DNA from: a virus
DNA: 47,904 nt
Reading direction: 5' to 3' (one strand)
Virus record (IMG/VR): IMGVR_UViG_3300045925_000050
Span: 1-47,904 of that record
Under the pieces are notes generated by a model. It saw only the letters and a program-made list of their open reading frames with translations. It was not told the DNA's origin and did no database searches. Numbering within the stretch: position 1 is the first letter of the stretch; each line of letters opens with the position of its first letter. A program made the translations under genes and the position numbers. This document shows positions 1-47,904 of this stretch, piece after piece.

Positions 1-27
1 GCAGAACGGACACGCTTTGCCACGCTT
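1..27. repeat. Terminal direct repeat, left copy (circular join)
   Basis: Bases 1-27 are identical to 47878-47904. A minus-strand reading frame continues across the join without interruption, so the repeat is best read as assembly overlap of a circular or circularly permuted genome and not as a biological long terminal repeat. A true 27-bp terminal redundancy cannot be excluded from sequence alone. Confidence 0.9.
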
Positions 28-342: not shown

Positions 343-1024
343 CCTTGTCCTCCAGTTGGGCGAGCTCCTGAACTTCGATCTTCCGTCGTTGTTGTTTGTC
401 ACGGAGCTTGTAGAGCCTCTCGATCTCGGCTTTCTGTTCGTCGTCGATCTTGTGGACCACCTCGGTCTTGTTGATCGCCTTGTCCACTATACCGATCGAC
501 TGAAGAACTTCGATCTTCTCACGTTCGATTTGCCAGTATGATCGATGATCTCCCGCTGCCACTGCCATCTCCTGCGCGTGTTCGCTCGCAAGCTGGAGCT
601 GGCCTGCGATCGTGTCTAGGCGGATGCCTACGACCTGTTCGCCCAGGCGGCCGGCGTAGATGTTCCAGGTGCGCATCACCTGATCGACGCCGATGCCCAG
701 GTCTCGCGCGATCACCTCGCTCCGGAACCCGTGGTCCCGCAGCGCAGCGATGATCGCGATCTGCTGCACAGGCACCAGCGCAGCGAACCATGCAGCCCGC
801 TCGTCGCGCGGGGTCACCTGCAACGTGCCCCACAAACGCTCCCCGAGATCCTTCAGCGAGTAGCGCGTGGTCACGCCGTCCGGGGCCTTCGGAGGAGTGA
901 CCCCAGCCTCGAACACGAGATCCGCGAGCTGCTGCACGTTGAGGCCGGCGGCCGACGCGGCAGCTTCGAGCTGCGCCCGAGCTGCCGGGTTCGCGATCGT
1001 GGGAGGTTGCTTCTGCTTCGGCAT
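290..1024 (-). CDS. terS: Probable terminase small subunit (helix-turn-helix protein)
   Basis: The product is a 244-residue, largely helical protein. A helix-turn-helix-like stretch lies around residues 98-125 (GFRSEVIARDLGIGVDQVMR), followed by a charged region (EIERLYKLRDKQQRRK) and a tail of four aspartates. This DNA-binding core with an acidic tail fits a small terminase, which recognises phage DNA for packaging and loads the large subunit. No better candidate exists in the genome, and the gene lies upstream of the large terminase on the same strand, separated by the glycosyltransferase island. The ATG overlaps the stop of the HNH gene as TGATG. Small terminases diverge fast, so the call rests on architecture and position; another DNA-binding regulator is the alternative. 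Confidence 0.55.
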   Translation of the reverse strand: MPKQKQPPTIANPAARAQLEAAASAAGLNVQQLADLVFEAGVTPPKAPDGVTTRYSLKDLGERLWGTLQVTPRDERAAWFAALVPVQQIAIIAALRDHGFRSEVIARDLGIGVDQVMRTWNIYAGRLGEQVVGIRLDTIAGQLQLASEHAQEMAVAAGDHRSYWQIEREKIEVLQSIGIVDKAINKTEVVHKIDDEQKAEIERLYKLRDKQQRRKIEVQELAQLEDKGEALPEGLGDKDYDDDD

Positions 1025-1581
1025 CAGAACGGAATGTCCTCGTGTCGGTCTGGACCGTTGTAGCTCGGGCCGAGCTCGCAGTCATCCTCCCACCGCATCC
1101 TGCGCTCGATCGCTTCCTCGCTCCAGTTGGACGCAACGTTCTCGGAGTGCGTCTGCCACGCGAGGTTCGAAGCTCGATTGTCGAGCGAGTTGTGGTTCAG
1201 GTGCGCGCAGTCAGTCTGCTCGGGTCCCGGCACTCCGTGAAATGCCAGACACACGAGCCGATGCACGAAGTGCTTCTCTCGCGCCCCGTTGTGCGTGAGG
1301 CAGACGCGCGCAGCCTTGCGTCCATGCCGCTCCTCAATCCAGGGAGCGAGCAGAGCTCCTCGCTTCTCGACGCGCGCACCGACGAGCTCGGCCAGCCAGA
1401 GCTCTATCGGCGCGACTTGGTAGCGCGGCGAGACCGAGCGGATCCGGCCTTGGTCGGACGCTTCGTAGCCTTCGTAGCCGGGGATCGCTTTCCAGGCTTC
1501 ATCACGTTGACCTGAACCTGCTGGATCGTGCCCCTCACGTCGTGACCGACCCACTTCGGCATCGTGCGCTTGATGGTCCAT
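1024..1581 (-). CDS. HNH homing-type endonuclease with NUMOD4 domain
   Basis: From about base 1494 downward the frame encodes a NUMOD4 DNA-binding motif (WKAIPGYEGYEASDQGRIRS), then the HNH core with HRLVCLAFHG and CAHLNHNSLDNRASNL. These are the hallmarks of free-standing phage homing endonucleases that nick DNA to spread themselves. The conserved region has no ATG, GTG or TTG directly before it. The nearest in-frame ATG is at 1581, which adds about 29 residues that look like out-of-frame reading of the upstream gene, so the true start is uncertain; entry by frameshifting from the upstream gene or a non-standard start is possible. The gene lies out of frame over the last 170 bp of its neighbour (1404-1709), which suggests it landed there. 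The stop overlaps the small terminase ATG. Confidence 0.85.
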   Translation of the reverse strand: MDHQAHDAEVGRSRREGHDPAGSGQRDEAWKAIPGYEGYEASDQGRIRSVSPRYQVAPIELWLAELVGARVEKRGALLAPWIEERHGRKAARVCLTHNGAREKHFVHRLVCLAFHGVPGPEQTDCAHLNHNSLDNRASNLAWQTHSENVASNWSEEAIERRMRWEDDCELGPSYNGPDRHEDIPF

Positions 1582-1709
1582 CGGGCAGCTCGATCGTTCA
1601 TGTCCTTCCGGCGGATCTGACCGAACACGAGAGAGCGGAGCTCCAGGAGCTCGCTGTGGGTAAGAACGGTGTCGCACTCGACAGACAAGATCACGCGGCG
1701 GGTCTTCAT
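1404..1709 (-). CDS. Small phage protein, 3' end overprinted by HNH gene
   Basis: This 101-residue frame starts at an ATG (MKTRRVILSVEC). A TTG at 1745 would add 12 residues. The N-terminal beta-alpha-beta pattern and the closing strand IQQVQVNV resemble small unknown proteins common in tailed phages. The last 30 or so residues are a Lys/Arg/Thr-rich tail that coincides with the out-of-frame NUMOD4 coding sequence of the next gene. The original C-terminus has therefore probably been replaced when the HNH gene arrived. Function unknown. Confidence 0.6.
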   Translation of the reverse strand: MKTRRVILSVECDTVLTHSELLELRSLVFGQIRRKDMNDRAARWTIKRTMPKWVGHDVRGTIQQVQVNVMKPGKRSPATKATKRPTKAGSARSRRATKSRR

Positions 1710-7303: not shown

Positions 7304-7479
7304 AGCGCATTCCGGCTTGGGTCAAAGCTGCCGAGTGGATCTTCCAGCAGTGGAATCTCCAGGAGACTGAGCGCAGGCAGAACGGGCAGGGTGCCGTGGA
7401 AATAGGAGTGGAAGCCTTGCGCGATCTTCGCAAAGCCTACCTGAGCTGGTATAGGAAGTGGCTGAAGGATAATCGATGA
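7300..7479 (+). CDS. Hypothetical protein, 59 aa
   Basis: The ATG overlaps the upstream stop (ATGA), giving MKRIPAWVKAAEWIF. A short basic, Trp-rich helical protein. It overlaps the helicase ATG by four bases. Unknown function. Confidence 0.62.
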   Translation: MKRIPAWVKAAEWIFQQWNLQETERRQNGQGAVEIGVEALRDLRKAYLSWYRKWLKDNR

Positions 7480-9299
7480 TCCTCGAAGTTGACTACGACC
7501 CCGACTCAACGCGCTTTCTGATCCGCGTCCCTGGCAAGATGATCGTTCCTGCGATCAACGAATGGCCAGGGTGGAAGCGCAATCCTAGCGGCACCTACTA
7601 CGCTCCAGCCTGGGCTAGCTGCGTCCTGCTGCCAAGCAAGGAACGGGCAACAGAGGTGCGATGGACTGCGAGCGCGAGTCGCAAGCGCGATCTCCTCTTG
7701 GCCAACATGGGCTTCGCGAGAGACTCGCTGACGAAGGGAGCTCAATCGATGAAGCCAACCGGCTGCCCTACGGAGAGGAAGCCACGCCCCTACCAGCTAG
7801 CCGGCGTCGAAGCGATGCGAGCGATGGACTGGCGCGTGCTGCTCGAAGATGAGATGGGCCTTGGGAAGACCAGCACTGCGCTGTGGGCCTTGCACGACAG
7901 CCACGTGGCTCGTTGCATCGTGCTTTGTCCTGTCAGTGCGAAATACAACTGGGAGAACGAGTTCAAGGAGACGCTTGGAGCTCAGTGGCCCAGTGTGTTC
8001 GTGATCGACGGCACGCCGAAGCAACGCGCCAACCAGTTCGCTGAAGTGAAGGAAGCGTGCAACGACAGCAAGGACCCTGCACACGTTGCGATCATCATCA
8101 ACTACGACCTGCTGCGTTACTTGACCACAGAGCAGTGGATCTACCTGAAGAACTTCGTGGGAGCAGGGATGCTGCTGTGTGACGAGTCCCACTACGTGAA
8201 GGATCGCAACGCAGAACGAACCAAGCTCACTCTGGAGCTCAGTTGGGCCGCTCGCTTCGCCACGTGCATCTCAGGGACGCCGATCCGCAACATGGCTGAC
8301 GACCTGTTCACTCAGGTCGAGATCATCAGACCGGGCACGTGGAGCTCCTACTGGGATTTCGCCAAGCGGCACCTGACGATCCAGCTCGTGAAGTTCGGCA
8401 AGCGTGAGGTGAGGAAGATCGTGGGGTCGAAGAACATCGATCAACTCAACGCGATCGTCAACACCTTCGCGATCAAGCGACTCAAGAAGGATGTCGGGGA
8501 TCTCCCTCCGAAGGTCCACACTTACCCCGAGCTGGAGCTCGAAGGCGACATGCTCTCCTTCTACAAGAAGATGAAGGAGTTCGCGAAGATCGAGCTCGCG
8601 AAGCTCATCGATGATGCTGCATGGCCCACGCACGCAGCGCAGATTACCATTTGGGACCCGCGAGCCAAGACCGCAGTGGAGGCTGCGCTGCGCTGCGAGC
8701 AGATCGCGCAGGGCTTTGTCGGTGGGATCCCTGAGCCCTTGATGGAGAAGCTCGGCGACTCGCTGAAGCTAGCGGAGAAGATCAAGGGGCGGCCCAATGA
8801 GCTCATGCTGCCTAGCTCCCCGAAGATCGTGTGGCTCATCGAGACCATCGCTCAGGTGCTCAAGCAAGGCGGGGCTCCGATCATCCTGTCCCGCTTCAAC
8901 GCGCCGATGTTCTGGCTGGAGATGAAGTTCGCAAGCCTGGGCGTGAAGAGCCGCGTGCTGCACGGCGACCTGAGCGCAGCAGAGAAGCACCTGTTTGTCA
9001 CCGACTTCCAAGGCGGCCAGTTCGACGTGCTTCTGTGTCAGGTGAAGATCGCGGAGAGCTGGAACGCGACGCGATGCCAGGATGTGATCTTCCTCACGCG
9101 CGACTGGTCCCCTGCGATGAACTCGCAAGGCGAAGATCGAGCGCATCGCTTCGGGCAGAAGGGCACGGTCAACGTGCAGATCCCGATCGTGCGCAACACG
9201 ATCGAGCGACTGATTCACAAGAAGCTGTTGGCGAAGGGCGTGGACGCAGAGCAGGCTCTTCGAACAGTGACGATCGCTGAACTCATGGAGAACCTCTAA
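7476..9299 (+). CDS. SNF2-family DNA helicase/ATPase
   Basis: The 607-residue protein has the superfamily 2 SNF2 motifs in order: Walker A DEMGLGKT at 125-132, motif II DESH at 236-239, motif III SGTPIRN at 266-272, and the C-terminal motif GEDRAHRFGQ at 552-561, which holds the arginine finger region. An N-terminal 100-residue segment resembles the HARP-like extension seen before some SNF2 cores. Such enzymes translocate on double-stranded DNA using ATP; in phages they are thought to act in replication, recombination or fork remodelling. It sits in the second early operon with ATGA coupling to both neighbours. All main motifs are intact. Confidence 0.95.
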   Translation: MILEVDYDPDSTRFLIRVPGKMIVPAINEWPGWKRNPSGTYYAPAWASCVLLPSKERATEVRWTASASRKRDLLLANMGFARDSLTKGAQSMKPTGCPTERKPRPYQLAGVEAMRAMDWRVLLEDEMGLGKTSTALWALHDSHVARCIVLCPVSAKYNWENEFKETLGAQWPSVFVIDGTPKQRANQFAEVKEACNDSKDPAHVAIIINYDLLRYLTTEQWIYLKNFVGAGMLLCDESHYVKDRNAERTKLTLELSWAARFATCISGTPIRNMADDLFTQVEIIRPGTWSSYWDFAKRHLTIQLVKFGKREVRKIVGSKNIDQLNAIVNTFAIKRLKKDVGDLPPKVHTYPELELEGDMLSFYKKMKEFAKIELAKLIDDAAWPTHAAQITIWDPRAKTAVEAALRCEQIAQGFVGGIPEPLMEKLGDSLKLAEKIKGRPNELMLPSSPKIVWLIETIAQVLKQGGAPIILSRFNAPMFWLEMKFASLGVKSRVLHGDLSAAEKHLFVTDFQGGQFDVLLCQVKIAESWNATRCQDVIFLTRDWSPAMNSQGEDRAHRFGQKGTVNVQIPIVRNTIERLIHKKLLAKGVDAEQALRTVTIAELMENL

Positions 9300-11197: not shown

Positions 11198-11436
11198 CCG
11201 ATCGAGTCGAGATCATCTCGAAGACCACGCCAGAAGGCACGTTCACCGGGGTCCGCTTCTACCTGGAGCTGCCAGTCAGCGTTGACCAACCAGAGCTCCC
11301 GAAGGAGATTCGTGGCCCATTCATTCACCGTCCCGGCGACGACGACAGTGCAGCCGTCACGTTTTGGGGCAAGGCCGAGCTGAAGGTGGCTCTGCGCAAG
11401 GCACTCGATCTTCTCGAAGCCCACGAACAACGATGA
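11167..11436 (+). CDS. Conserved small phage protein, 89 aa
   Basis: Starts MRVNIYAEEMTDRVEI and contains FTGVRFYLEL and DDDSAAVTFWGKAELKVALR. This pattern is familiar from many tailed-phage early regions annotated only as hypothetical. Beta-rich N-terminus with a C-terminal helix. Function unknown. Confidence 0.75.
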   Translation: MRVNIYAEEMTDRVEIISKTTPEGTFTGVRFYLELPVSVDQPELPKEIRGPFIHRPGDDDSAAVTFWGKAELKVALRKALDLLEAHEQR

Positions 11437-11858
11437 ACGAAGCCCTAGCAGTCAAGATCAAGACCTACTACGAGGCTCGTGCAGCCTACGACGCAGCAAA
11501 GAAGATCAGCGACGAGCACGATGCAGTTCGCCGAGCCAAGGAACAGGAGCTGGTGGACTACATGCTCGAACAGAAGATCAAGAGCGTGAAGCTCGAAGAC
11601 GGCACGACGCCAACCCTGGTCAACACGGTCTCGATCCGCGTAGTGCAGGAGAACTTCGAAGAAATCAGGCAGTGGCTCAGGAACACGGTCGGCGACGATG
11701 CCGACTTCCTGGTCACGATCCCGCACAAGCCTGCAATCGTCGAATACGTGAAGCGGCAGATCGAGCAGGAGAAGCTCGATGACGACGACTTCCCTGCCTT
11801 CTTGCAGTGCAGCACCCGGCCGGCGATGCGAGTTACAGGGTGGAAGGGGCGCGAGTGA
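11433..11858 (+). CDS. Conserved phage protein of unknown function, 141 aa
   Basis: ATGA-coupled start. A long N-terminal helix with coiled-coil character (YYEARAAYDAAKKISDEHDA) leads into a small beta domain (KIKSVKLEDGTTPTLVNTVS) and a helix (FEEIRQWLRNTVGDDADF). Proteins of this layout are frequent in phage replication regions, without an established role. The previous and next genes overlap it by four bases each. Confidence 0.75.
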   Translation: MNEALAVKIKTYYEARAAYDAAKKISDEHDAVRRAKEQELVDYMLEQKIKSVKLEDGTTPTLVNTVSIRVVQENFEEIRQWLRNTVGDDADFLVTIPHKPAIVEYVKRQIEQEKLDDDDFPAFLQCSTRPAMRVTGWKGRE

Positions 11859-12052
11859 CCACGCGGCACCTGACGGTCTGCATCGACTTTGAGTCCGGGA
11901 TTCAACTCGCCACGTATCCCGACAAGATGATCCAAGTCCAAGTAGAGGCCGACTTCTACGTTGGCCAGCGTCGCTATCGAGTGGTGGACAAGCTCGACGG
12001 CAACGACGAAGAACCGCTTGTCCTCGTTCTCAAGAAACACGAAGAACCATGA
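11855..12052 (+). CDS. Hypothetical protein, 65 aa
   Basis: GTG start in a GTGA overlap (MTTRHLTVCIDFESG). Beta-rich, small; the strand pattern VQVEADFYVGQRRYRVVDKL suggests a single compact sheet. No family recognised. Confidence 0.62.
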   Translation: MTTRHLTVCIDFESGIQLATYPDKMIQVQVEADFYVGQRRYRVVDKLDGNDEEPLVLVLKKHEEP

Positions 12053-12816
12053 GCGAAGAACAAAAACAAGAACTAGTGATCTGGAAACCCAGCGACTTCA
12101 ACGGCAGCGACCTGCTTCCTGTGACCTACGGGAGCAAGAAGGTGGACAACAGCGGGCGCGAGAACATCGACGCCGCAGACTTGATCTTCCCCACGCTCAA
12201 GATGCTCCAGGGCAGTAGCGACGAGGTGAAGAAGGGCGTCGAAGGAGCTCGGGCCGGGCTCTTCTGGCTGACCGGCGCGGAAGAACCGTTCAAGCCCCCT
12301 CTCCGTGTGCTTCCCGTGGCTCACACGAAGAGCCGCACCCTGTTCCCCAAGGAGAACCGGCCCGAGCACGCGGGCCTCGAAGAGTGTCGCTCCAAGGATG
12401 CAGTGACGGGCACAAGGTATGGCTCCTGCGCGGAGTGCCCCTACAAGGACTGGGACAACGAACACGACCGTCCGCCGGCCTGCTCGGAGTCCAACAACTT
12501 CACGGTCCTGACCCCCTTCGGACCGGCAGTTCTGCGCTTCCAGCGCACCAACTACAAGGCGGGCAAGAAGCTCATCTCGGCCTGGGGAATGAGCCCTGAC
12601 CCGCTGTTTGCTCACCCGCTGGTCTTGTGGGCCAGCAGCCGAACCGACAAGGTGAACGGCCAAGACTCCATCACGCACCTTGTTGAAGTGAAGTGGGTTC
12701 AGCGGGAGACTGTGCCCCCCCAGGTGCAGGAAGCTGCACGGGCTCTCGCAATGCAAGTGGCAGCCGCCCATGAAGCAGGTAAGTTCGGATCGAGTGACGA
12801 CAGCCGCGACGAATAG
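12049..12816 (+). CDS. Possible ssDNA-binding replication protein, 255 aa
   Basis: ATGA-coupled to the upstream gene and placed immediately before the primase-helicase. The layout resembles a phage family often found next to replication genes: DLIFPTLKMLQGSSDEV near residue 44, a beta region, a Cys cluster ECRSKDAVTG and SCAECPYKDW, then TPFGPAVLRFQRTNYKAGKK. Several such proteins are annotated as ssDNA-binding on weak grounds. The cysteines could bind zinc. I am confident of the gene, not of the function. Confidence 0.6.
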   Translation: MSEEQKQELVIWKPSDFNGSDLLPVTYGSKKVDNSGRENIDAADLIFPTLKMLQGSSDEVKKGVEGARAGLFWLTGAEEPFKPPLRVLPVAHTKSRTLFPKENRPEHAGLEECRSKDAVTGTRYGSCAECPYKDWDNEHDRPPACSESNNFTVLTPFGPAVLRFQRTNYKAGKKLISAWGMSPDPLFAHPLVLWASSRTDKVNGQDSITHLVEVKWVQRETVPPQVQEAARALAMQVAAAHEAGKFGSSDDSRDE

Positions 12817-12839: not shown

Positions 12840-12876
12840 ACGGGCTGCGCCACTGGCTAGGTGGGCAGCCCGTTTG
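12840..12876 (+). terminator. Hairpin, possible terminator or attenuator before the primase gene
   Basis: ACGGGCTGC (12840-12848) pairs with GCAGCCCGT (12865-12873), and inner CCAC/GTGG extends the stem around a short loop. Only three T's follow, so it may be a weak terminator, an attenuator or an mRNA-stability element. It ends about 10 bp before the ribosome site of the primase gene. Confidence 0.6.
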
Positions 12877-12896
12877 CCATTCCGGAGGCTCAGTCC

Positions 12897-15800
12897 GTGG
12901 CAGACAACGCATTCACTTTGGTCAAGGAAGCGATACCTGCTCAGGCAGACGCGATCTTGGCCGAGTTCGGTGTTCGACACAACAGGGAAGGGACAAGACT
13001 CAAAGGAGACTGGACCACCGGCTTCCTCTGCCCGCTCTGCGGCGACAAGTCTGGATCAGCGAGCTTCACTCATCAGCTCTACCTGAAGTGCCACCAGTGT
13101 TCGACCAAGGCCGACGTGTTCGACTGGTTGAGCAAGCACACCGGCAAGAAGCCCTGGGATCTCTGCAAGCAGCTCGCCGAACGTCTGAAGGTCACGCTGC
13201 CCGACGCCAAACGGCCGCCGAAGACCCAGCGAGGCATGCCTCCCAGGATGACGGAGAGCATCCTCCAGGCCGCGATCAGGGACCTGTGGGACCACAAGGA
13301 CGCCGAGCCTTCGCGAGCTCTGCTGGCTGAAAGGAAGCTCGACGACCCGGTTCTCCTCGCCCAGTTAGAGATCGGGTGGATCCGTGGCTGGATCGTGTTC
13401 GCGAGCCGTGACGAGAAGGGCAACCTGCTCGATCGCTACCGGGGCTGGAACCCAGGCAACCCGAAGCTGAAGTGGATGTGGCATGGGACCCCAGGCGGGA
13501 GCGGCGGGCCAGGGATCTGGCCTAGCCCCACTCGCAACCCAGGCGCGAGCTCGGACAAGGTGATGCTGTTGGAGGGGGAGTCCGACGTGCTGACTGCACT
13601 TGTGAGGCTCAAGCTCCACGAGCAAGGCTGGCACGTATGCACGTGGACAGCAGGGGCCACGAGCTGCCCGCAGCCCAAGGACATTCCGCGCGTGATCCAC
13701 GGCAAGCCGGTCTACATCGGCTACGACAACGATGTCTTCCAGGGGCCGGACTACGCGGGCTACTACGTCGAGACGAAGCCCGGCAAGAACCCGGACCACG
13801 CGCGCCAGTCGTTAGAGCAACGACTGCGCAACCTTCTTCAGAAGGTCTCCCCACTGTTCGCGAGTCTCGGCTGTCGGGTCACAGTGATGAAGTGCCCGGT
13901 AGATCCCCGTGAGAAGTTCGGCGGTGACTTTCGCGATTGGGTCGATGCCGGCGGGCGGAACCTCTCGGATTGGGAGACCTTTCCGTTCGATGATCTGCCG
14001 GACTACGGGAAGCTGATTATCGATCTTCCCTTCGGCGAAGTGTTCGGAGTAGTCCACAAGCCCGTCCGGACGCGCGTGCAGGTTGAAGCAATAGCTAGAG
14101 ACGATGTGACGCTCAGTAGCGTCTTCGAGATGAAGTGTGAGATGGGCCAGCATCCTGCGTGCTCCTTGTGTCCTGGAGCTCGGCAGTTTCCTGATCGACT
14201 GATCGACGTGCAATCGTTTCAGCGAGAACTGGCCGTGGGCCTGGAGCAACAAAACGTCTCCGAGAAGATCATCAGGGACGTGATCCAACGGCCGAAGGGC
14301 TGTCCACGGATCGAGGTGGTCCCCGTCGATGTGAACAACGGCTCGGAGTGGCGCGGGATGTTGCCGGGCAAGGTCGAAGACAGCACGCAGCGCAGCCTCC
14401 ACATCTTCAGCCCTGACCCTCCGAGCCTGAGCGGAGAGATGGAGATCGAAGGAGTGGCGTATCCCAACGCCAGAGGCAACGGAGTCGTGTTCCTCGCTGA
14501 TCGAGTGCGCCAGCTCGACAAGGCCGAAGTGGACCTAGCCCCGGTAATGCAGGAGCTCCTACAAACCTGCCCCGCCTTCACCGATGACGTGTCAGCGATC
14601 GATGAGTTCTTCGCTCTTCGAGCTCGGGACCTGAGCTACCACGTCACGAAGATCTACGGCCGCCAAGACATCCACATCGCGCACGACCTGTTGATGCACT
14701 CAGTCCTGCGCGCGAAGCTGTTCGGCGCAGTGCAGCGAGCATGGCTCGACATCTGCGTGTTCGGCGACACGCGCACCGGCAAGTCGTTGACCTTCCGCCG
14801 GCTGCTGGAGTTCCATGCGCTCGGGATCCACCACACGGCCGTGTCCAACATGAGCCGTGCTGGCCTGCTGATGGGAGCTGGGAAGGACGGCTTGCTAAAG
14901 CCCGGTGTGCTGCCTCGCTGCAACGGCAAGATGGTGATGCTCGACGAGTTCCACTTCCTCGTGCAGAACAGCCCGCACGAGCACCCGATGAGCTGGATGC
15001 AGTCAGCTCGGGATGATGGCGTTGCGAGCGGCGTGAAGATCTACGGCAACCGCGACCTTCCTGCGGCCGTGCGTCTGGTCACGATCGCGAACTGGATGCG
15101 CAACAAGCGGCGCAACTTCCAATTCGACTGCGAGCACCTTGGAGCTCTGTATGGCGCACCAGAGACCCTTGCTCGGCTCGATTTCGGGCTCGCGATCAAC
15201 TGCCAGCCGAGCCAGTTCACGCTCGACTCGTGCGAGCAGTTCTGGACGAAGGAGCGCACGCGCGCCCTGATCCTTCGGGCATGGTCGCAGGACGCCACGC
15301 AGGTGTTCATCGATCCAGACGCCGAAGACTACTCCAAGCAGTGCTGCATCGACTGGAAAGACCGTTTCGACGCCGAGCAGCTCCCGCTCTTCACTCCGGA
15401 GGAGAAGAGCTACAGCCTGCTGCGCATCGCGGTAGCCGTGGCTAACTGCGTCTTCAGCCACCCGAAGCACGACCCCTACAGCGTGCACGTGCGCAAGGTT
15501 CACGTGGAGTGGGCTGCCAACTGGCTGCTGCACACGTGGAACGTCTCCGGCTACGACATCTACAGCTACAAGCGGCGCGAGTCGCAGGAAGTGGTCAAGA
15601 TCTTCGAGGCCGAGCGCATGATTACCGTGGAGCTCGGGCTCGAAGATCCAGCCATCGCGATCAGCCGGCTGCAATCGCTGCTGACTCCCTTCGGGCAATC
15701 GGAGGTGGTGAGCCTGACCGGGCGCGAGATCAACCACGCGCACAACTGGCTCTCGCGCATGCTCGCACTGCACGTGTTCGAGCGGGTCAAGGAAGCGAAT

Positions 15801-16031
15801 GCCTACACGGTGCGCTACACGCTGACGCGCGGCGGCATGCAACTGCTCGGGAACCTCATCAAGCTGGCCGAAGGGGACGTGGCCGCCTGGGTTGACCGCT
15901 GGAAGCAGATGAAGGCTTGGAGCGAGGCACTGACCGGCGGCCAGAAGCTCGCCGAGCCCGCAGTAGTCCCGATGAACCAGGAAGGATGGGATCAACTTGG
16001 CAACGCTGACCGATCAGAAGTGCCGTTCTAA
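12897..16031 (+). CDS. Primase fused to MCM-like AAA+ replicative helicase
   Basis: This 1044-residue protein starts at GTG with a GGAGG ribosome site eight bases upstream. In order: a DnaG-type zinc ribbon with C45, C48, C65 and C68; a TOPRIM-like domain with LLEGESD at 224-230 and the acidic DND at 277-279; a middle region with a possible OB fold and Cys cluster (C414, C422, C425); then an AAA+ ATPase with Walker A GDTRTGKS at 623-630, Walker B LDEF at 682-685 and a sensor-1 Asn in TIANW at 729-733. The segment SARDDGVASGVKIYGNRDLP has the layout of the MCM insert region between Walker B and sensor 1. It would prime and unwind DNA at the phage fork, in place of the usual DnaB-type helicase. 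The ATPase could also be a related AAA+ clade. No polymerase gene accompanies it. Confidence 0.85.
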   Translation: MADNAFTLVKEAIPAQADAILAEFGVRHNREGTRLKGDWTTGFLCPLCGDKSGSASFTHQLYLKCHQCSTKADVFDWLSKHTGKKPWDLCKQLAERLKVTLPDAKRPPKTQRGMPPRMTESILQAAIRDLWDHKDAEPSRALLAERKLDDPVLLAQLEIGWIRGWIVFASRDEKGNLLDRYRGWNPGNPKLKWMWHGTPGGSGGPGIWPSPTRNPGASSDKVMLLEGESDVLTALVRLKLHEQGWHVCTWTAGATSCPQPKDIPRVIHGKPVYIGYDNDVFQGPDYAGYYVETKPGKNPDHARQSLEQRLRNLLQKVSPLFASLGCRVTVMKCPVDPREKFGGDFRDWVDAGGRNLSDWETFPFDDLPDYGKLIIDLPFGEVFGVVHKPVRTRVQVEAIARDDVTLSSVFEMKCEMGQHPACSLCPGARQFPDRLIDVQSFQRELAVGLEQQNVSEKIIRDVIQRPKGCPRIEVVPVDVNNGSEWRGMLPGKVEDSTQRSLHIFSPDPPSLSGEMEIEGVAYPNARGNGVVFLADRVRQLDKAEVDLAPVMQELLQTCPAFTDDVSAIDEFFALRARDLSYHVTKIYGRQDIHIAHDLLMHSVLRAKLFGAVQRAWLDICVFGDTRTGKSLTFRRLLEFHALGIHHTAVSNMSRAGLLMGAGKDGLLKPGVLPRCNGKMVMLDEFHFLVQNSPHEHPMSWMQSARDDGVASGVKIYGNRDLPAAVRLVTIANWMRNKRRNFQFDCEHLGALYGAPETLARLDFGLAINCQPSQFTLDSCEQFWTKERTRALILRAWSQDATQVFIDPDAEDYSKQCCIDWKDRFDAEQLPLFTPEEKSYSLLRIAVAVANCVFSHPKHDPYSVHVRKVHVEWAANWLLHTWNVSGYDIYSYKRRESQEVVKIFEAERMITVELGLEDPAIAISRLQSLLTPFGQSEVVSLTGREINHAHNWLSRMLALHVFERVKEANAYTVRYTLTRGGMQLLGNLIKLAEGDVAAWVDRWKQMKAWSEALTGGQKLAEPAVVPMNQEGWDQLGNADRSEVPF

Positions 16032-16275
16032 GGTCAAGGCTCTCTCGGCCAAGATGGAAGAGCTCTACGAGCGAGAGTTCCTTGAACACTCGCCGAGCGA
16101 TGCGTTCTGGCAACGCTACCTCGAAATCGACAAGGAGCTCGGGAAGAAGCTGGCCGTGCGACCGATCGGCAACCTGGAGATCGATGCTGCTTGCAACGCT
16201 GCCCTGAAAGCGTTCAGCTCTGCGATCAACGATGACCAACGCGCTAGAGCTGCTGCTGCGAAAGGCCGGACGTGA
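15997..16275 (+). CDS. Hypothetical helical protein, 92 aa
   Basis: Starts at TTG inside the 3' end of the primase-helicase gene (35-bp overlap), with a purine-rich stretch upstream. Helical, charged (KVKALSAKMEELYEREFLEH). An internal ATG is possible. Unknown function; expression is tied to the replication genes. Confidence 0.6.
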   Translation: MATLTDQKCRSKVKALSAKMEELYEREFLEHSPSDAFWQRYLEIDKELGKKLAVRPIGNLEIDAACNAALKAFSSAINDDQRARAAAAKGRT

Positions 16276-16672
16276 GCTCGCGGACCATCAGGTCTGCCGG
16301 TTCTTCAAGGTGCCAGAGGAGATGCAGCAGACGCCGTGCGACTTCTTCGGCTACACGAAGATCGGCCGCGCGATCCTGATCGAAGCGAAGTGGGTCCACC
16401 GGACCAACCTGCCGATCAACTGCTCGCCTGGACTCCTGCCGCACCAGTGGAACGAGCTCGAAGCAGCCAACAAGGCTGGAGCTCTGTCCCTCATCTGTTG
16501 GGCTCGGGACACCGAATGCGCGGCGTTGAGTTTCGACGTTGCTGCGAAACTCGCGCAAGGTCGTCGTTCAATCGCCTGGGATTCCATCGACAAAAAGTTT
16601 CTTCGCTCGCTGTTCGGCCCTTCAGCGCATTTGGAGCTGCTCGATCACTGGCTCCCGCTCAACGGGTCTTGA
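16232..16672 (+). CDS. RecU-like Holliday junction resolvase (PD-(D/E)xK nuclease)
   Basis: The 146-residue protein carries a PD-(D/E)xK core: PCDFFG with D37, ILIEAK with E51 and K53, and the RecU-like downstream LLPHQWNEL with H71 and Q72. RecU-type enzymes cut four-way junctions during recombination or before packaging. Length is short for bacterial RecU but usual for phage forms. It follows the primase gene by one small overlapping gene, which fits a role in replication-recombination. Confidence 0.8.
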   Translation: MTNALELLLRKAGRELADHQVCRFFKVPEEMQQTPCDFFGYTKIGRAILIEAKWVHRTNLPINCSPGLLPHQWNELEAANKAGALSLICWARDTECAALSFDVAAKLAQGRRSIAWDSIDKKFLRSLFGPSAHLELLDHWLPLNGS

Positions 16673-17089: not shown

Positions 17090-17364
17090 CGCATCATCTT
17101 AGGCACGTTCAGGTCAGGATTGCCAGCCCTGAGCGACTCCACGAAGATCTCGAAGTCCTTCTTGGACATGAACTCGCTGCCTAGACCGTCCAGCTTGCGC
17201 TCCAGCCGGGTCAGCGTTTCGCCCTGAACGTCCTGGTTGCTCAGAATGCGCTGGTAGGCAAGACCGACCCAAAACGCGCCGACCACGAAGGAGCACAGGC
17301 CGGCAACGGCCACGCCAACGGGGATCCAGGTCTTGTCCGGGGTGAGTTTGGTCTCGGATCTCAT
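17086..17364 (-). CDS. Membrane protein with coiled coil (holin candidate), 92 aa
   Basis: A transmembrane segment near residues 14-37 (WIPVGVAVAGLCSFVVGAFW) precedes a charged coiled-coil-like region (ETLTRLERKLDGLGSEFM). The ATG overlaps the stop of the polyvalent-protein gene. A one-segment membrane protein with a cytoplasmic or periplasmic coiled coil, at the end of the late block and paired with a second tiny membrane protein, fits a holin-like pair. No endolysin is recognisable nearby, so this stays a candidate. Confidence 0.75.
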   Translation of the reverse strand: MRSETKLTPDKTWIPVGVAVAGLCSFVVGAFWVGLAYQRILSNQDVQGETLTRLERKLDGLGSEFMSKKDFEIFVESLRAGNPDLNVPKMMR

Positions 17365-20300
17365 CGCTGCTGCCTCGATTTCTCTACGAGTGGACGAGCC
17401 AGTTCGTAGCTTCTCTTTTCGGCTTCTTCACGGGAGATCTCGCCGGCTCTCTGTCGTTTGCGGAGATCCGAGATGTGCCGCTTGGCCGTGTCCACCTGGG
17501 CCTTGAGCCCCTTCTCCCAGCCGGCCAGGGTCTCCTCGTTCTGCTCCAGCCTGACGCTCAGGTCGTAGAGCTTGTCCACGAAGTCCGACTGGCCGTGCTC
17601 GGTCTGCTTGAAGAACCGCACGAACGGGTTGACTGCGATGCCGGGGTGATCCTTGAGACCAGCGAGCTCGTCGATCGCACGCATGCCGGCGATGCCGGCT
17701 CCAGCGGTGTAGCCGCCCGTGAGCTGCTCGATCTGGATCGGCGTGAGCAGGCCGCCGATCGCCTTGGACATGACCTTGGCAGTCTCGGTCGTGTAGAAGG
17801 TCGATTGCTCGCTGCGCGGCATTCCACGCTCGATCCACTCCGGCGTGAGCGGGCGGCCAGTGAAGAAGTTGTGCCCCGTTGCCACTTCGAGGATTGGCTT
17901 CAGGATCGTGGGGATCATGTTGCCGACTTCGAGGTAGGGACCGGCGAGGGAGGCCAAGGCCGACTTCATCTGCGCTGGGTTCTTGCCGAACATGCGGTCT
18001 GCCCAAAGCTGCGGGATGCCGCCGAACAGGACACCTGCCTCGAACGGCGTCGGGATCGAAACGATCTGATCGCCGACCTTGAAGTTCACGTAGCCGAGCT
18101 TCCTCCACTCGGGGAGATCCTGATACCAATCCTCGTCCTTGACCATGGCCCAAATGGCCAGTGTCGGAACCGTGATGTTCGCGATGCCGTTCAGCAAGAT
18201 GCCACGCTGGATGCGAGCCTTCGCTTCATCGCCCTTCGTGTCCACGCCGCCGGCCAGGAGTGCTCCCCACAGCTTCCGCTGACCCTGGAGGCCCGCGTTG
18301 AAGTAGGGGATGAACTGGTTGGCCACGCGCGCCAGGACGCCAGCTCGCGCGAAGTTCACGGTGATCTCGCGGCCAGCTTCGAGCGCACGCAAACGAGCCT
18401 CTTGTTCTGTCCGCCCCTCCGCGATGGCTTCCCGGTAGCCACGTCTGAAAGCATCCATGCGGATGTAGTTCTCCGGGTGCGCGAACCAGTTCTGCACGTT
18501 GTCCGCCCAGGACTTCGTTCGCTGCCACAGGGTCATCTGTTCGCCGATCAGGGACCGCTGACGACCCTCGGTCCAGAACGACGACGACTTGGCCCCGAGC
18601 TCCTCGTAGAGCTCGCGCATCGCTCCGTTGCGGTGATACTCGATCGCCCCCCGGAACAGGGACCACAGGCCGCCGAGCGGCCGGAAATCCCCGTTGCGGT
18701 CGAACAGCGGGGCCGAGAACGCATCGCGGATCATGTTCGCCGCGACGAATGCCGGCTGCACGCCGGTTGCGAAGAACCGGAACAGGTCCCTGGGAGCCTG
18801 AGCCCACTGCAACACGGTCTGCATCGAGCTCGGGAGCTGGGGGAGCTTGTCCACGCCCATCAGGGCTTCGTAGGCCCGTGCGTCCACCTCCATCCATTGC
18901 AGCTTGCCGTTCTGCTCGCGGAGAGCCCGCTGGTCGCCGCCAAGGGCTGTCAGGCGCATGATCTCTTCCTCCGACAGCCTCGGGGTCACGGCAATGATCG
19001 ATCGCTCCCCGGTCGGCACGATCTTCTGGCTGAACAGGGTGATCGTCTGCGGGTCGAGCGCATCGGCTTGCCGTAGGGCGTCGAAGGTCTGCGACAGCGT
19101 GTCCTGGAGCTGGGCCGGGACGTTGGCTCCCTGCTCGATCGCATCCAAGACCCGGTGGAGGGGATGTTCCTTCGGGACGTTCGTGCGGTTCACGACCGAG
19201 GCGAGGCCGCCGGCCTCGTAGCCCATCGCCATCTTGTAGAGCGACTCCATGACCTGATGCTGGTGCGCCTTCGCCACGAGACTGCGCGCCACCTGCTGGA
19301 GCTTCACGAACGGGTCCACCACCTCGGCCTCGATGCCTTCGATGCGCGCGAGTCCGGTGCCGCGCTCGGCGACGCCACGACCTTGGCCGTGCTGCGCTGG
19401 GCCTTCGAGGTGCCGGAAGAACGGGACGTAGATCACATACTTGTCCTTGATCTTCGCGGCATCCTCGTGACTGATGTTGCCGGCCATTGCAACCCAGTCG
19501 ATCAGTGCGTCGGTCCATCGCTTCAGGTTGTGACCGATCTCCACGAAGTCCGGGTGTTGCTCGGTGATCTGCCTGACGGAGTGCGTGAGATCTTCTGGCG
19601 TAAGGCTGATGCTCCGGCCGTGCCGGAAGAGATCCATGTTCCTGATCGCGACCACGTAGTCCTGGAAGTCCTGCTCGCGACCACGCACCGCATCCATGAC
19701 GCTCGCGAGTCCTGGCACGACATCACGCGAGCCTGGGAGCCGGATGCCGCGAAGAACGAAGTGCTCGACGACCTTGTTCACGGTCATACCCAGCGTGTCG
19801 ATCATCCTCGCTGGATCATCCATGATCGTCACGTCCTCGGGCCGGCGACCGATTGCGTTGAGCCAGCGGTCCTGGCTCTGCTTAAGCTGCGCCATGTCGT
19901 CGAGCATCGCCTTGTTCAGAGCGGTGACCGCTCGACGGAAGATGTTCGGTCGTTGCGCCCGCTGCTCTGGTCCGAGTGGCCGCGCTCCGCTGACCTGACT
20001 CTGCCGCAGTCGTCCACGAGCTCCCTGCTGGTTGTAGCGCGAGATGAGACCCTGGATCCGGTAATACTGTTCGCGGAGGTGCTCCTGTCGCGGCTCGGCC
20101 AACCACGACCGCATGAAGCGAGAGAGTGCGGGGACCTGTGCATCGAGTCCGACTTCGCCGAGCAGGTTCCTCGCGTGCCACTCGGCCCAGGTCTCTGCCC
20201 ATCGCAGCCAGCCGGGAAGGTTCTGCGAGTTCGGGTAGTTGGCCAACATCGTGTCCATGTCCCGCCGGATCGCTGCCCCTTCTGGAGAGCGCATCACAGC

Positions 20301-22988
20301 CGCCATCTGGCCGCGAGCTCCGCGACTGAACGCACGACCACCTCCACCGACGATGCGGCGGTGCATCGCGTGCGACCACTCGTGCGAGCCGACCACGATG
20401 TCTCGGCCGCCCTTCACGCGAGCGAGGTTGCCGAAGAGGTTGTAGAAGCCCTCCACGCCGCGCCCGAGCACCTTGCCGAACCGCATCGCCGTCTGAACGA
20501 AGTCGCCACGGTCGCCGCCAAGGCGCGTGGCTGTGCCTGGGATGCGCAATCCCCCGCGCCCCGGCCTGCCGCCCATCGCGGCGAAGATCTCGGCTTGGCT
20601 CGTCCCTTCGACTCCTGGAGTCGGCTCCATCTGCGTCGTCGGGGGCTGCTGGAACGACCCTGGCCCGCTGCGCACGCCGTGCGGTCCTGCTTCTCCAATC
20701 CTCATTTCCGCGCGTGATGGAGCTCCAGATGGCACGCCCGGCACAGCCACCTCACCTCCAGCGGCTTCGCGTAATCGTCGTGATGCATCTGGCTCTTCTT
20801 GTCCCCGCACTGCTCGCAGGGCTTCTTCACCAGCTTTCCGCGACTCAGGTAGACCTTCGCGTAGCTCCGCGCGTTCGCGCGCCGTCTCGCCTCGCCCTTC
20901 AGCGGGTGGTCTCTTCGCCACTTCCGCATCGCCTTCGCGTGGCACTTCAGGCAGTAGCTCTGGTTTCGCCTCGCGTGCAGGTCCCCGCACTTCCAGCATT
21001 TCCGAAGATGTTCCACGTTTGCCTTCCATGGTAACACCTTCCCTGATCTCTCGATACCGTTCCTCGCTGATCCGCCCAGGCTTGACTTCTGTCTCCTTGG
21101 CCTTCGCGAGCTCTTCTTCCACCTCTGCCTTGATGCGCTCACGCTTTGGCAGGAAGCCCTTGGCCACGTAGGGCTTCGCTTCCGGCTTCGCGACTGGAGT
21201 CGGCTCGCCTCGCTGCTCGGGCAGCTTCGCTTGCTCCAAGATCTTCTCCATGTCCGATTCCACGTTCTGCTGCACCTCGCGCCCGCCGAACTCCTCGCGA
21301 TCGAGCTCGCTTTCGAGCTCGCGTTGAGAGCGCAACGCTTCGGCTCGTTCCTCCGGAGGGAGGTTCGGGTCCTTGGCCGCGCGACTCAGTTTGCCGAGCC
21401 GTTCCAGCTTGCCCTTGTCCTTTATCGGCGCTGCGGCCACCTCTTCTTGAGTCGCTTTTCCTTCCGCCATCTTCTCGGCTAGCTGTGCCCTGGCAACCCC
21501 ACGATTGAATGCGGTCATCGCAGATCGATCAGCGTCGGTGAACGTGCGACCCGAGGCCGACTTCACCAGTGCGAACGTCAGCATGTTGCGCAAGAAGATC
21601 TCGGCCGTGCTCTCGTTCGGATTCCTGATGAAGCCCCAGCTCGCCGGCAGAACCTCCGGCATCGCAGTCTCGACGCCGCCGAACCCGAGTCCTTCGAGTG
21701 CTCCCGCGACTGCGCGAGCAGCGAAGCCCGGCATGTGGGCACGGTTCGCAGCGAACCATTCGGTCTTCTTGCCAAGAGCTCCGAGCGTCATCAGCACTGG
21801 CGACATCGCGAGCCCGTGGAGGTAGGCCGCGCCGTAGCCATCGATGCGACCCTGGTTGACGGATTCCAGGGCAGCCCACCCGGCCGCAGTGCCACTCACC
21901 TTGCCCAATGACTCGATGATCTTCAGCGCACGCTTGCTGCTCTCGATGCCCTTCGCTAATCGAAGACCACCGAGTGCCTTCAGCCCCGCCATGGTGAGAG
22001 TGCCGCCACCCTTCACGACCGCTTGCCCGACTGCGCCGAACGCGCCGAACAGCGGTCCCATTCCGAGAAGTTCGCCGCCGCCACGACTCACCGTGTTGAC
22101 GAGTCCACGGAAGCCGGCTCGCGTCGCTTCCTCCCACTGCTGCACGCGCCCGGACTCGGCCACGTCCTTCTCGATGTTCGAGTTCGTCGCGTAGCTCCAC
22201 GCCATCACGAGCCCGTCCATGACCGAGGGGACCTTGCCGGCGTTGAACACACGCTCGCCGCTGTCGTTGTCGATCCAGTTCGTCGGGTAGCTCGGGCCAA
22301 CGTCTGGTCCACCGAGAGCCATGATGCCTCGCCGCCCCAGGTCGTAGATGCCGTGGCTGGCCCAGTTGGCGACGTGCCCGACACCTTCGATTCCCTGCCA
22401 CGCTGCAATCGCCGTCTCCGCGACCGGCCCCATGGAGGGACGCTGTTGCTCGCCGCTCGACATGAACCCGACTTCACCGGGTCCCGACTCACGGTTGAGC
22501 CACTGCGCGTAGTTCGACGTGCGAGGATCACTCCAGAAGTCGAAGCGAGGATCGGCGAGCTTGAGCGCAGGGATCAGCTTGTTCACGACGAGCTGGCGGA
22601 TGTTGGCCACCTCGTTCGGATCCACCATGACAGGCTTCATCTGCTGCATCTGCGCCAAGGCTTCGTTCTCGTCCTTCGGCACCTTGATGACTTGCGACTC
22701 GTTCTGCGTCTTGTAACGCTCGAACACGCCGTCCATGAACGTCCGGACTTCTCCCCAGCCGCTCTGTGGATCAGCGAAGACCGAATTGATCTTCTTGCTG
22801 CGCTCGCGCTCCAGATAGAGCCTGCGCTGGGCTTCCACCTGCCAATACTTCGGCTGACCGAAGGCTGGCGGATCGACCAGCGGATCTCCTCCGTTGAGCT
22901 CGGTGAGTGCCGACCCGTAGGCCGCACGCTTCTGATCGAGCAGGAAATCGGTCTCGGGAAGAAGGCGGCCTGGGTCGGTGCTGCTCAC
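17361..22988 (-). CDS. Large polyvalent (internal virion) protein, 1875 aa
   Basis: The GTG start overlaps the upstream stop (GTGA). Gly/Ala-rich hydrophobic segments occupy about residues 290-440, followed by a long Glu/Arg/Pro-rich, disorder-like linker at about 490-780. A zincin-like HEWSHAMH with H869, E870 and H873 follows. A C-terminal region around residue 1545 (NFARAGVLARVANQFIPYF then NAGLQGQRKLW) matches the LPD38-type domain of phage polyvalent proteins. Such giant proteins are carried in podovirus heads and ejected with the DNA, where they may help the genome across the envelope or act on the host. Residues about 651-763 are read from the same bases as a nested HNH gene. It may also hold a peptidoglycan-degrading part not recognised here. 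Confidence 0.85.
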   Translation of the reverse strand: MSSTDPGRLLPETDFLLDQKRAAYGSALTELNGGDPLVDPPAFGQPKYWQVEAQRRLYLERERSKKINSVFADPQSGWGEVRTFMDGVFERYKTQNESQVIKVPKDENEALAQMQQMKPVMVDPNEVANIRQLVVNKLIPALKLADPRFDFWSDPRTSNYAQWLNRESGPGEVGFMSSGEQQRPSMGPVAETAIAAWQGIEGVGHVANWASHGIYDLGRRGIMALGGPDVGPSYPTNWIDNDSGERVFNAGKVPSVMDGLVMAWSYATNSNIEKDVAESGRVQQWEEATRAGFRGLVNTVSRGGGELLGMGPLFGAFGAVGQAVVKGGGTLTMAGLKALGGLRLAKGIESSKRALKIIESLGKVSGTAAGWAALESVNQGRIDGYGAAYLHGLAMSPVLMTLGALGKKTEWFAANRAHMPGFAARAVAGALEGLGFGGVETAMPEVLPASWGFIRNPNESTAEIFLRNMLTFALVKSASGRTFTDADRSAMTAFNRGVARAQLAEKMAEGKATQEEVAAAPIKDKGKLERLGKLSRAAKDPNLPPEERAEALRSQRELESELDREEFGGREVQQNVESDMEKILEQAKLPEQRGEPTPVAKPEAKPYVAKGFLPKRERIKAEVEEELAKAKETEVKPGRISEERYREIREGVTMEGKRGTSSEMLEVRGPAREAKPELLPEVPREGDAEVAKRPPAEGRGETARERAELREGLPESRKAGEEALRAVRGQEEPDASRRLREAAGGEVAVPGVPSGAPSRAEMRIGEAGPHGVRSGPGSFQQPPTTQMEPTPGVEGTSQAEIFAAMGGRPGRGGLRIPGTATRLGGDRGDFVQTAMRFGKVLGRGVEGFYNLFGNLARVKGGRDIVVGSHEWSHAMHRRIVGGGGRAFSRGARGQMAAVMRSPEGAAIRRDMDTMLANYPNSQNLPGWLRWAETWAEWHARNLLGEVGLDAQVPALSRFMRSWLAEPRQEHLREQYYRIQGLISRYNQQGARGRLRQSQVSGARPLGPEQRAQRPNIFRRAVTALNKAMLDDMAQLKQSQDRWLNAIGRRPEDVTIMDDPARMIDTLGMTVNKVVEHFVLRGIRLPGSRDVVPGLASVMDAVRGREQDFQDYVVAIRNMDLFRHGRSISLTPEDLTHSVRQITEQHPDFVEIGHNLKRWTDALIDWVAMAGNISHEDAAKIKDKYVIYVPFFRHLEGPAQHGQGRGVAERGTGLARIEGIEAEVVDPFVKLQQVARSLVAKAHQHQVMESLYKMAMGYEAGGLASVVNRTNVPKEHPLHRVLDAIEQGANVPAQLQDTLSQTFDALRQADALDPQTITLFSQKIVPTGERSIIAVTPRLSEEEIMRLTALGGDQRALREQNGKLQWMEVDARAYEALMGVDKLPQLPSSMQTVLQWAQAPRDLFRFFATGVQPAFVAANMIRDAFSAPLFDRNGDFRPLGGLWSLFRGAIEYHRNGAMRELYEELGAKSSSFWTEGRQRSLIGEQMTLWQRTKSWADNVQNWFAHPENYIRMDAFRRGYREAIAEGRTEQEARLRALEAGREITVNFARAGVLARVANQFIPYFNAGLQGQRKLWGALLAGGVDTKGDEAKARIQRGILLNGIANITVPTLAIWAMVKDEDWYQDLPEWRKLGYVNFKVGDQIVSIPTPFEAGVLFGGIPQLWADRMFGKNPAQMKSALASLAGPYLEVGNMIPTILKPILEVATGHNFFTGRPLTPEWIERGMPRSEQSTFYTTETAKVMSKAIGGLLTPIQIEQLTGGYTAGAGIAGMRAIDELAGLKDHPGIAVNPFVRFFKQTEHGQSDFVDKLYDLSVRLEQNEETLAGWEKGLKAQVDTAKRHISDLRKRQRAGEISREEAEKRSYELARPLVEKSRQQR
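20702..21037 (-). CDS. HNH endonuclease nested out of frame in the polyvalent-protein gene
   Basis: In another frame of the same strand, inside the 1875-residue ORF, lies a 111-residue HNH protein. From the GTG at 21037: Cys pairs CWKCGD and CLKCH, then C74-x2-C77-G, HHDDYAKPL (H85, H86, D87), VRWLCRACH (C99, C102, H103) and H107. This is the standard phage HNH signature with zinc-binding cysteines. Upstream of the GTG is AGGGAA. The other frame stays open through all 336 bp and becomes the Arg/Glu/Pro-rich linker of the large protein. Either the insertion happened to keep the host frame open, or the two products are made from one mRNA. Confidence 0.85.
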   Translation of the reverse strand: MLPWKANVEHLRKCWKCGDLHARRNQSYCLKCHAKAMRKWRRDHPLKGEARRRANARSYAKVYLSRGKLVKKPCEQCGDKKSQMHHDDYAKPLEVRWLCRACHLELHHARK

Positions 22989-47857: not shown

Positions 47858-47904
47858 GCCATCCACTCTGTGTGCCCGCAGAACGGACACGCTTTGCCAC
47901 GCTT
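47854..47904 (-). CDS. Join-spanning hypothetical protein, C-terminal part
   Basis: The last codons (ending GHTEWMA) of the 121-residue CPFCGH protein described at 1-342. Bases 47878-47904 duplicate 1-27. The TGA overlaps the ATG of the following glycosyltransferase. Confidence 0.75.
   Translation of the reverse strand, partial: KRGKACPFCGHTEWMA
47878..47904. repeat. Terminal direct repeat, right copy (circular join)
   Basis: Exact copy of bases 1-27; see the left copy. The 27-bp length would fit a k-mer overlap left by an assembler. Confidence 0.9.

Follow-up and report, generated by a model that had tools for sequence, protein, structure and literature searches.

Replication forks in bacteria are normally driven by a 5′-3′ DnaB-type helicase together with DnaG, and MCM forks use a 3′-5′ helicase with a different primase. 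Among the mobile elements of bacteria, MCM proteins were first described in bacteriophages, as excerpted passages of PMC5862659 relate, citing McGeoch & Bell 2005 and Samuels 2009 for phage MCM; BcMCM, an AEP-MCM, is characterised in the excerpted text of PMC4538821 as a 3′-5′ helicase with ssDNA-stimulated ATPase activity. Phage MCMs, in the form of the AEP-MCM of Bacillus prophages, are thus already known, and the protein encoded in our window, the whole 47,904-nucleotide stretch of viral DNA analysed here, is a DnaG-MCM variant. What is new is a C-terminal tail resembling the tip of bacterial SSB on the primase-MCM of the window and of its nearest relative, a tail that in a third member, as in many distant relatives, sits on the upstream SSB-like gene. 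We conclude, with a probability of roughly 0.8, that the protein is a primase-MCM with a replicative role in partnership with a host polymerase.

The protein has the order zinc ribbon, TOPRIM primase, OB/zinc domain, AAA+ motor and winged-helix-like end, and its gene and domains are laid out as follows (residues are numbered throughout from a GTG at 12861).

12897..16031, plus strand: primase-MCM helicase gene, 1044 aa from GTG 12897
13029..13100, plus strand: zinc ribbon C57-x2-C60-x16-C77-x2-C80, a C4 variant of the DnaG CHC2 ribbon (PF01807 E 0.0059, below cut-off)
13557..13946, plus strand: TOPRIM part of the DnaG-type primase, from alignments, the primase-half model and the catalytic acids
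14043..14540, plus strand: predicted MCM N-domain with OB-type strands and a four-Cys zinc site (C426, C434, C437, C481), from the model and a VIA alignment that begins at model residue 8
14589..15530, plus strand: MCM AAA+ motor with helix-2 insert (residues 666-686) and pre-sensor-1 hairpin (residues 721-734), from profile, model and structural matches
15600..15872, plus strand: predicted C-terminal winged-helix-like domain, from model secondary structure and beyond the range of the structural matches
16002..16028, plus strand: C-terminal tail NADRSEVPF, like the bacterial SSB tip DDDIPF by sequence resemblance

The open frame runs from 12861 to 16031 on the plus strand and begins with GTG 12861 (1056 aa). 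GTG 12897 is probably the true start, as the sequence-only reading had it, and is preferred over 12861 because GGAGG stands just 5′ of it and the ATG starts of the two nearest relatives, G002 (71%) and G003 (50%; locus L017), align at that position. Searched alone against PHROGs, the protein matched phrog_18685 (2.9e-23), a DNA primase family (1e-7) and a DNA helicase family (6e-6).

On profile comparison and predicted structure, the AAA+ motor is a genuine MCM. A profile of 51 helicase halves (A3) had 70 matches among PDB sequences at E≤10, the best 60 of which were all MCM2-9 or archaeal MCM chains (top 6.5e-13). Pfam MCM (PF00493) was matched by 47 of the 51 halves at E≤0.01, that of the window being among the four without a match, and by 9 of the 11 members of a further set (A1) at E≤1. 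The window protein had no match to Pfam MCM on its own, so its membership of the family rests on its relatives and on the model; searched whole against PDB, it met an MCM at E 1.2. The AlphaFold2 model of the helicase half (pLDDT 83.4, pTM 0.81) carries a hairpin within helix 2 (strands 294-296 and 302-304) and another before sensor 1 (strands 344-349 and 352-357), at the places specific to the helix-2 insert and pre-sensor-1 hairpin of MCM and within stretches that the family profile aligns with MCM. Foldseek returned MCM as the top match of this model (7.5e-19), and VIA-align superposed it on 6mii with a Z of 29.6 over 450 residues at an rmsd of 5.6 Å (model residues 8-527), an alignment that spans N-domain and motor and leaves the winged-helix-like end outside. 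Walker A K641, Walker B D695/E696, sensor-1 N744, Arg finger R772 and sensor-2 R855, assigned by alignment to MCM, are all present; the active-site residues are intact and nearly invariant in an alignment of 65 rows, 62 to 65 of which conserve the four Cys positions of the N-domain zinc site. The features looked for in a member of the MCM family, namely a motor related in sequence, both hairpins, the OB/zinc N-domain and the AAA+ motifs, are all present. That the AAA+ domain recalls MCM and not DnaB had been suggested from the sequence alone, and family profile and predicted fold now agree on it; the profile search against MCM, D5 and SF3 and the structure prediction for MCM inserts, both proposed as checks, came out on the side of MCM.

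No D5, SF3 or DnaB chain was among the 60 PDB profile matches listed, nor was any such fold among the 50 Foldseek and VIA matches listed, lower-ranked folds lying outside these. The motor also contains QLPLF (residues 840-844, also in G002), which resembles a beta-clamp motif; it sits in a conserved loop before the sensor-2 helix, where relatives have PPLV and L017 has TLPLY, and was counted as part of the MCM fold, not as a sign that the protein binds the clamp.

The primase half is DnaG-type by sequence and by predicted fold. Its model (pLDDT 82.2) matches Aquifex DnaG (3.9e-10), B. subtilis DnaG and the T7 gp4 primase, and the TOPRIM acids E238, E240, D242, D289, D291 and D356 are all present, with E240, D289, D291 and D356 found in 65 of 65 alignment rows. 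The PF01807 and TIGR01391 matches of the window protein were both below cut-off; zinc ribbon, TOPRIM fold and catalytic acids, the features of a DnaG-type primase, are all in place. The joining of a DnaG-type zinc ribbon and TOPRIM to an AAA+ domain, read earlier from the letters, was recovered with its active-site residues, the ribbon being C4 rather than CHC2: its second position is His in 47 of 65 rows and Cys in the window. Directly after the catalytic DND of TOPRIM lies an insertion (13734-13796) of at least about 20 extra residues that is found in the window clade only and not in distant relatives.

Nine annotated relatives, from phages and a plasmid, were gathered, together with relatives from IMG/VR, which gave 192 confirmed DnaG-MCM hits, of which 80 were kept; only four relatives were found in 84,980 species genomes. 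The DnaG-MCM form is common in IMG/VR and, with 192 hits there, not rare. This count and the phage MCMs already published (excerpts of PMC5862659) speak against the earlier view that MCM is uncommon in bacterial phages. Public phage genomes already hold DnaG-MCM proteins, annotated 'DNA primase/helicase', and a search of open-access titles and abstracts, itself weak evidence, found no description of a DnaG-MCM fusion, a polymerase-less clade, a moved tail or a phage helicase bearing an SSB tip. Shorter MCM ORFs also occur in the family (L018, 427 aa; L050, 717 aa; L079, 425 aa; L082 and L083, 620 aa each); those of L018 and L079 lie directly after an ORF of some 520 aa, suggesting that separate genes can encode primase and MCM.

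The genomic setting of the primase-MCM gene comprises the following features.

1..27, plus strand: terminal direct repeat, copy 1 of an exact 27-nt repeat
7476..9299, plus strand: SNF2-type helicase, conserved in the clade
11364..11858, plus strand: Pam3 gp33-like protein (PF23984 E 3.2e-8), conserved in the clade
12049..12816, plus strand: SSB-like, Pam3 gp34-like gene upstream of the primase-MCM (PF23977 E 3.1e-15), without the PF tail of its L017/G003 homologue
12842..12878, plus strand: perfect inverted repeat AACGGGCTGC/GCAGCCCGTT (10 bp) in the gap that separates the SSB-like gene from the primase-MCM start
16232..16672, plus strand: Holliday junction resolvase (phrog_843 E 5.3e-14), conserved in the clade
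47878..47904, plus strand: terminal direct repeat, copy 2 of the exact 27-nt repeat

SNF2 helicase, gp33-like, SSB-like, primase-MCM and resolvase genes belong to the early set of the clade, and the inverted repeat AACGGGCTGC/GCAGCCCGTT is possibly an attenuator or operator. The structural genes resemble those of SU10/tf-type podoviruses, whose listed hosts are mostly Gram-negative. Beside the SU10-type structural genes, 17361-22988 on the minus strand encodes a protein of 1875 aa that contains an LPD38 polyvalent-protein domain and may be an internal virion protein that is injected.

The exact 27-nt direct repeat at both ends of the window closes the circle. DNA polymerase was found neither in PHROGs scans of 31 window proteins nor in Pfam scans of 21, and whole-record HMM searches for PolA, DnaE and PolB, whose positive controls registered, were negative in the window, G002 and G003; a PF03175 search with a silent control was left out of the count. 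The sequence-only reading had reported no DNA polymerase in the genome, and for this complete genome its statement holds at the level of PHROGs, Pfam and PolA, DnaE and PolB matches. Both relatives are collinear with the window over the whole genome and overlap at their ends (G002 by 197 bp at 99.5%, G003 by 157 bp at 95%). Since the window and two collinear circular relatives all have none, the absence of a polymerase is a trait of the clade and not an assembly accident. In a tree of helicase halves these three genomes make up a single, long-branched clade (2.95; support 100/100) that adjoins two DnaE-bearing relatives (96/84).

The same searches were applied to 46 records, namely the window, G002 and the 44 of the 80 kept loci that reach at least 39 kb. 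PolA was found in 10 and DnaE in 28, so that 38 carry one or the other, PolB was found in none, and 8 have no match, the window, G002 and G003 being three of these. Polymerase type is clustered on the helicase-half tree, with 6 changes against a shuffled mean of 19.4. Three records without a PolA, DnaE or PolB match (G012, G015 and G031) have no end repeats and are possibly fragments; on the tree, G031 (L062) falls among DnaE-bearing relatives. Outside the window clade, two further records of the DnaG-MCM family, G042 (L081) and G026 (L050), have end repeats and no PolA, DnaE or PolB match.

The tip of E. coli SSB is DDDIPF (PMC5872125). The primase-MCM of the window ends in NADRSEVPF, that of G002 in FAQGDIPF, those of L034 and L086 in ADDDDIPF and that of L081 in PEKPPF. 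PF endings occur in 41 of 774 distinct ORFs of the loci and, as the list reads by eye, fall on 4 primase-MCMs, 36 proteins in the slot just upstream and 1 HNH gene of the window. In a script count that excluded the window and G002, a PF-ending ORF was among the three nearest upstream ORFs in 38 of 73 loci (28 of 73 as [DE]xPF), and the primase-MCM ORF itself ended in PF in 2 of 72. Ten upstream-slot proteins were scanned: four matched Pam3_Gp34, three DUF669 (one weakly, E 0.0044) and three neither. Phage HK620 encodes a DUF669 protein that has been proven to be an SSB, and the partner Sak4 depends on its C-terminal hexapeptide NDYPPF (excerpts of PMC5928155). Proteins of the DUF669 family, whose HK620 member thus carries a C-terminal PF tip, occupy the upstream slot in some relatives; in HK620 the tip is on the SSB, whereas the primase-helicase, and not the SSB-like protein, bears a comparable one in the window and G002. 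The arrangement is reciprocal: in L017 the SSB-like protein ends in GDMPF and the primase-MCM lacks a PF ending, and in the genomes of the window and G002 the tip is found on the primase-MCM, the SSB-like protein terminating before it. A PF tail on the primase-MCM is also found in the PolA-bearing L034 and L086, so the tail does not track polymerase loss strictly. It occurs in 3 of 8 records without a polymerase and 2 of 38 with one (Fisher p 0.03; 0.06 after merging close kin), which makes a link between tail and polymerase absence only suggestive.

The window genome has a second SSB-tip-like tail, HEDIPF, at the C-terminus of an HNH endonuclease (1024-1677, minus strand); the G002 match to this protein stops at residue 188 of 217 and G003 has no match.

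Several other explanations bear on these results. That the motor belongs to D5, SF3 or another AAA+ family and is merely MCM-like would fit the failure of the single window protein to match Pfam MCM and its PDB match of E 1.2, yet the listed best 60 matches of the family profile are MCM chains only, the model has both MCM hairpins and the structural alignment takes in the N-domain as well as the motor, leaving this explanation very improbable indeed. A phage polymerase too divergent for recognition could hide among the many genes without a family match, and most relatives encode PolA or DnaE. In the plus-strand early block, however, unassigned ORFs do not exceed about 215 aa, the large genes without an assignment sit beside the SU10-type capsid, portal and adaptor genes in the structural block of the minus strand, and the HMM searches were negative in three complete genomes of the clade. 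The possibility had been named in advance as one that would overturn the absence of a polymerase; none turned up, and we consider it highly unlikely.

Somewhat less improbable, though still unlikely, is an accessory or restart role, in which a host DnaB/DnaG replisome carries out bulk replication. A phage lacking its own polymerase must already use much host machinery, and genes for recombination (SNF2 helicase and resolvase) are likewise part of the early block; against this, no other primase and no other helicase of hexameric type was found in the genome, and the counterparts of the primase-MCM in relatives adjoin PolA or DnaE genes. For the tail, chance is a possibility to be taken seriously, even if we would not favour it outright: the EVPF/DIPF motif is short, its acidic run is weak in the window (RSEVPF) and it is missing from the primase-helicase of L017, and recruitment of a polymerase could proceed without a dedicated motif. 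The near confinement of PF endings to the primase-MCM and the slot upstream is evidence to the contrary, and the reciprocal absence of the tip from the SSB-like proteins of the window and G002 would be hard to obtain by chance.

We therefore return to the primase-MCM as the replicative primase-helicase of the phage, in which a full MCM follows a DnaG-type primase. The protein would form a hexamer and unwind 3′-to-5′ on the leading-strand template in the fashion of MCM, and the tethered primase would capture and prime the displaced (excluded) lagging strand, giving a fork geometry like that of the eukaryotic fork and unlike that of DnaB or T7 gp4. Synthesis would fall to the host polymerase, Pol III. 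Since no recognisable polymerase occurs in the window and two complete sister genomes, the helicase probably must work with a host polymerase. The sequence-only reading had held that the phage must recruit it; this is an inference, and most relatives encode their own PolA or DnaE. The SSB-tip-like C-terminus might dock the primase-helicase onto host replication proteins that bind SSB, an idea we hold only tentatively from the resemblance of the motifs. Equally speculative is a history in which the lineage lost or never had a polymerase and moved the SSB tip from the SSB-like protein to the DnaG-MCM, wiring a eukaryote-type 3′-5′ motor into bacterial polymerase machinery. We know of no cell that uses such a hybrid replisome.

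A bacterial primase fused to an MCM in a phage without a polymerase offers a natural case in which to ask if a bacterial polymerase is able to run behind MCM. One helicase-primase family occurs with PolA, with DnaE or without a polymerase, and this makes the DnaG-MCM family a ready system for the study of helicase-polymerase coupling.

Among known systems, BcMCM and the other AEP-MCM proteins of Bacillus prophages share with the window protein a phage MCM fused to an N-terminal primase, and two AEP-MCM proteins (L010 and L011) align with the DnaG-MCM family. Their primase is archaeo-eukaryotic (PF01896 in two members of A1), whereas the window protein has a DnaG-type TOPRIM domain in its place and so falls outside the AEP-MCM class; L010 and L011 also lie near a DNA polymerase gene, unlike the window. 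The 'DNA primase/helicase' proteins of Krampusvirus, Wollypog, BSP7, Youna2 and API480 have the same zinc ribbon-TOPRIM-MCM order at 19-23% identity to the window (A1), but all are near a DnaE or PolA gene and lack the PF tail. T7 gp4 and Twinkle likewise place a DnaG-type primase ahead of a hexameric helicase, and their primase part matches that of the window by fold; their motor, however, is of the RecA/DnaB type and runs 5′-to-3′, whereas that of the window is an MCM.
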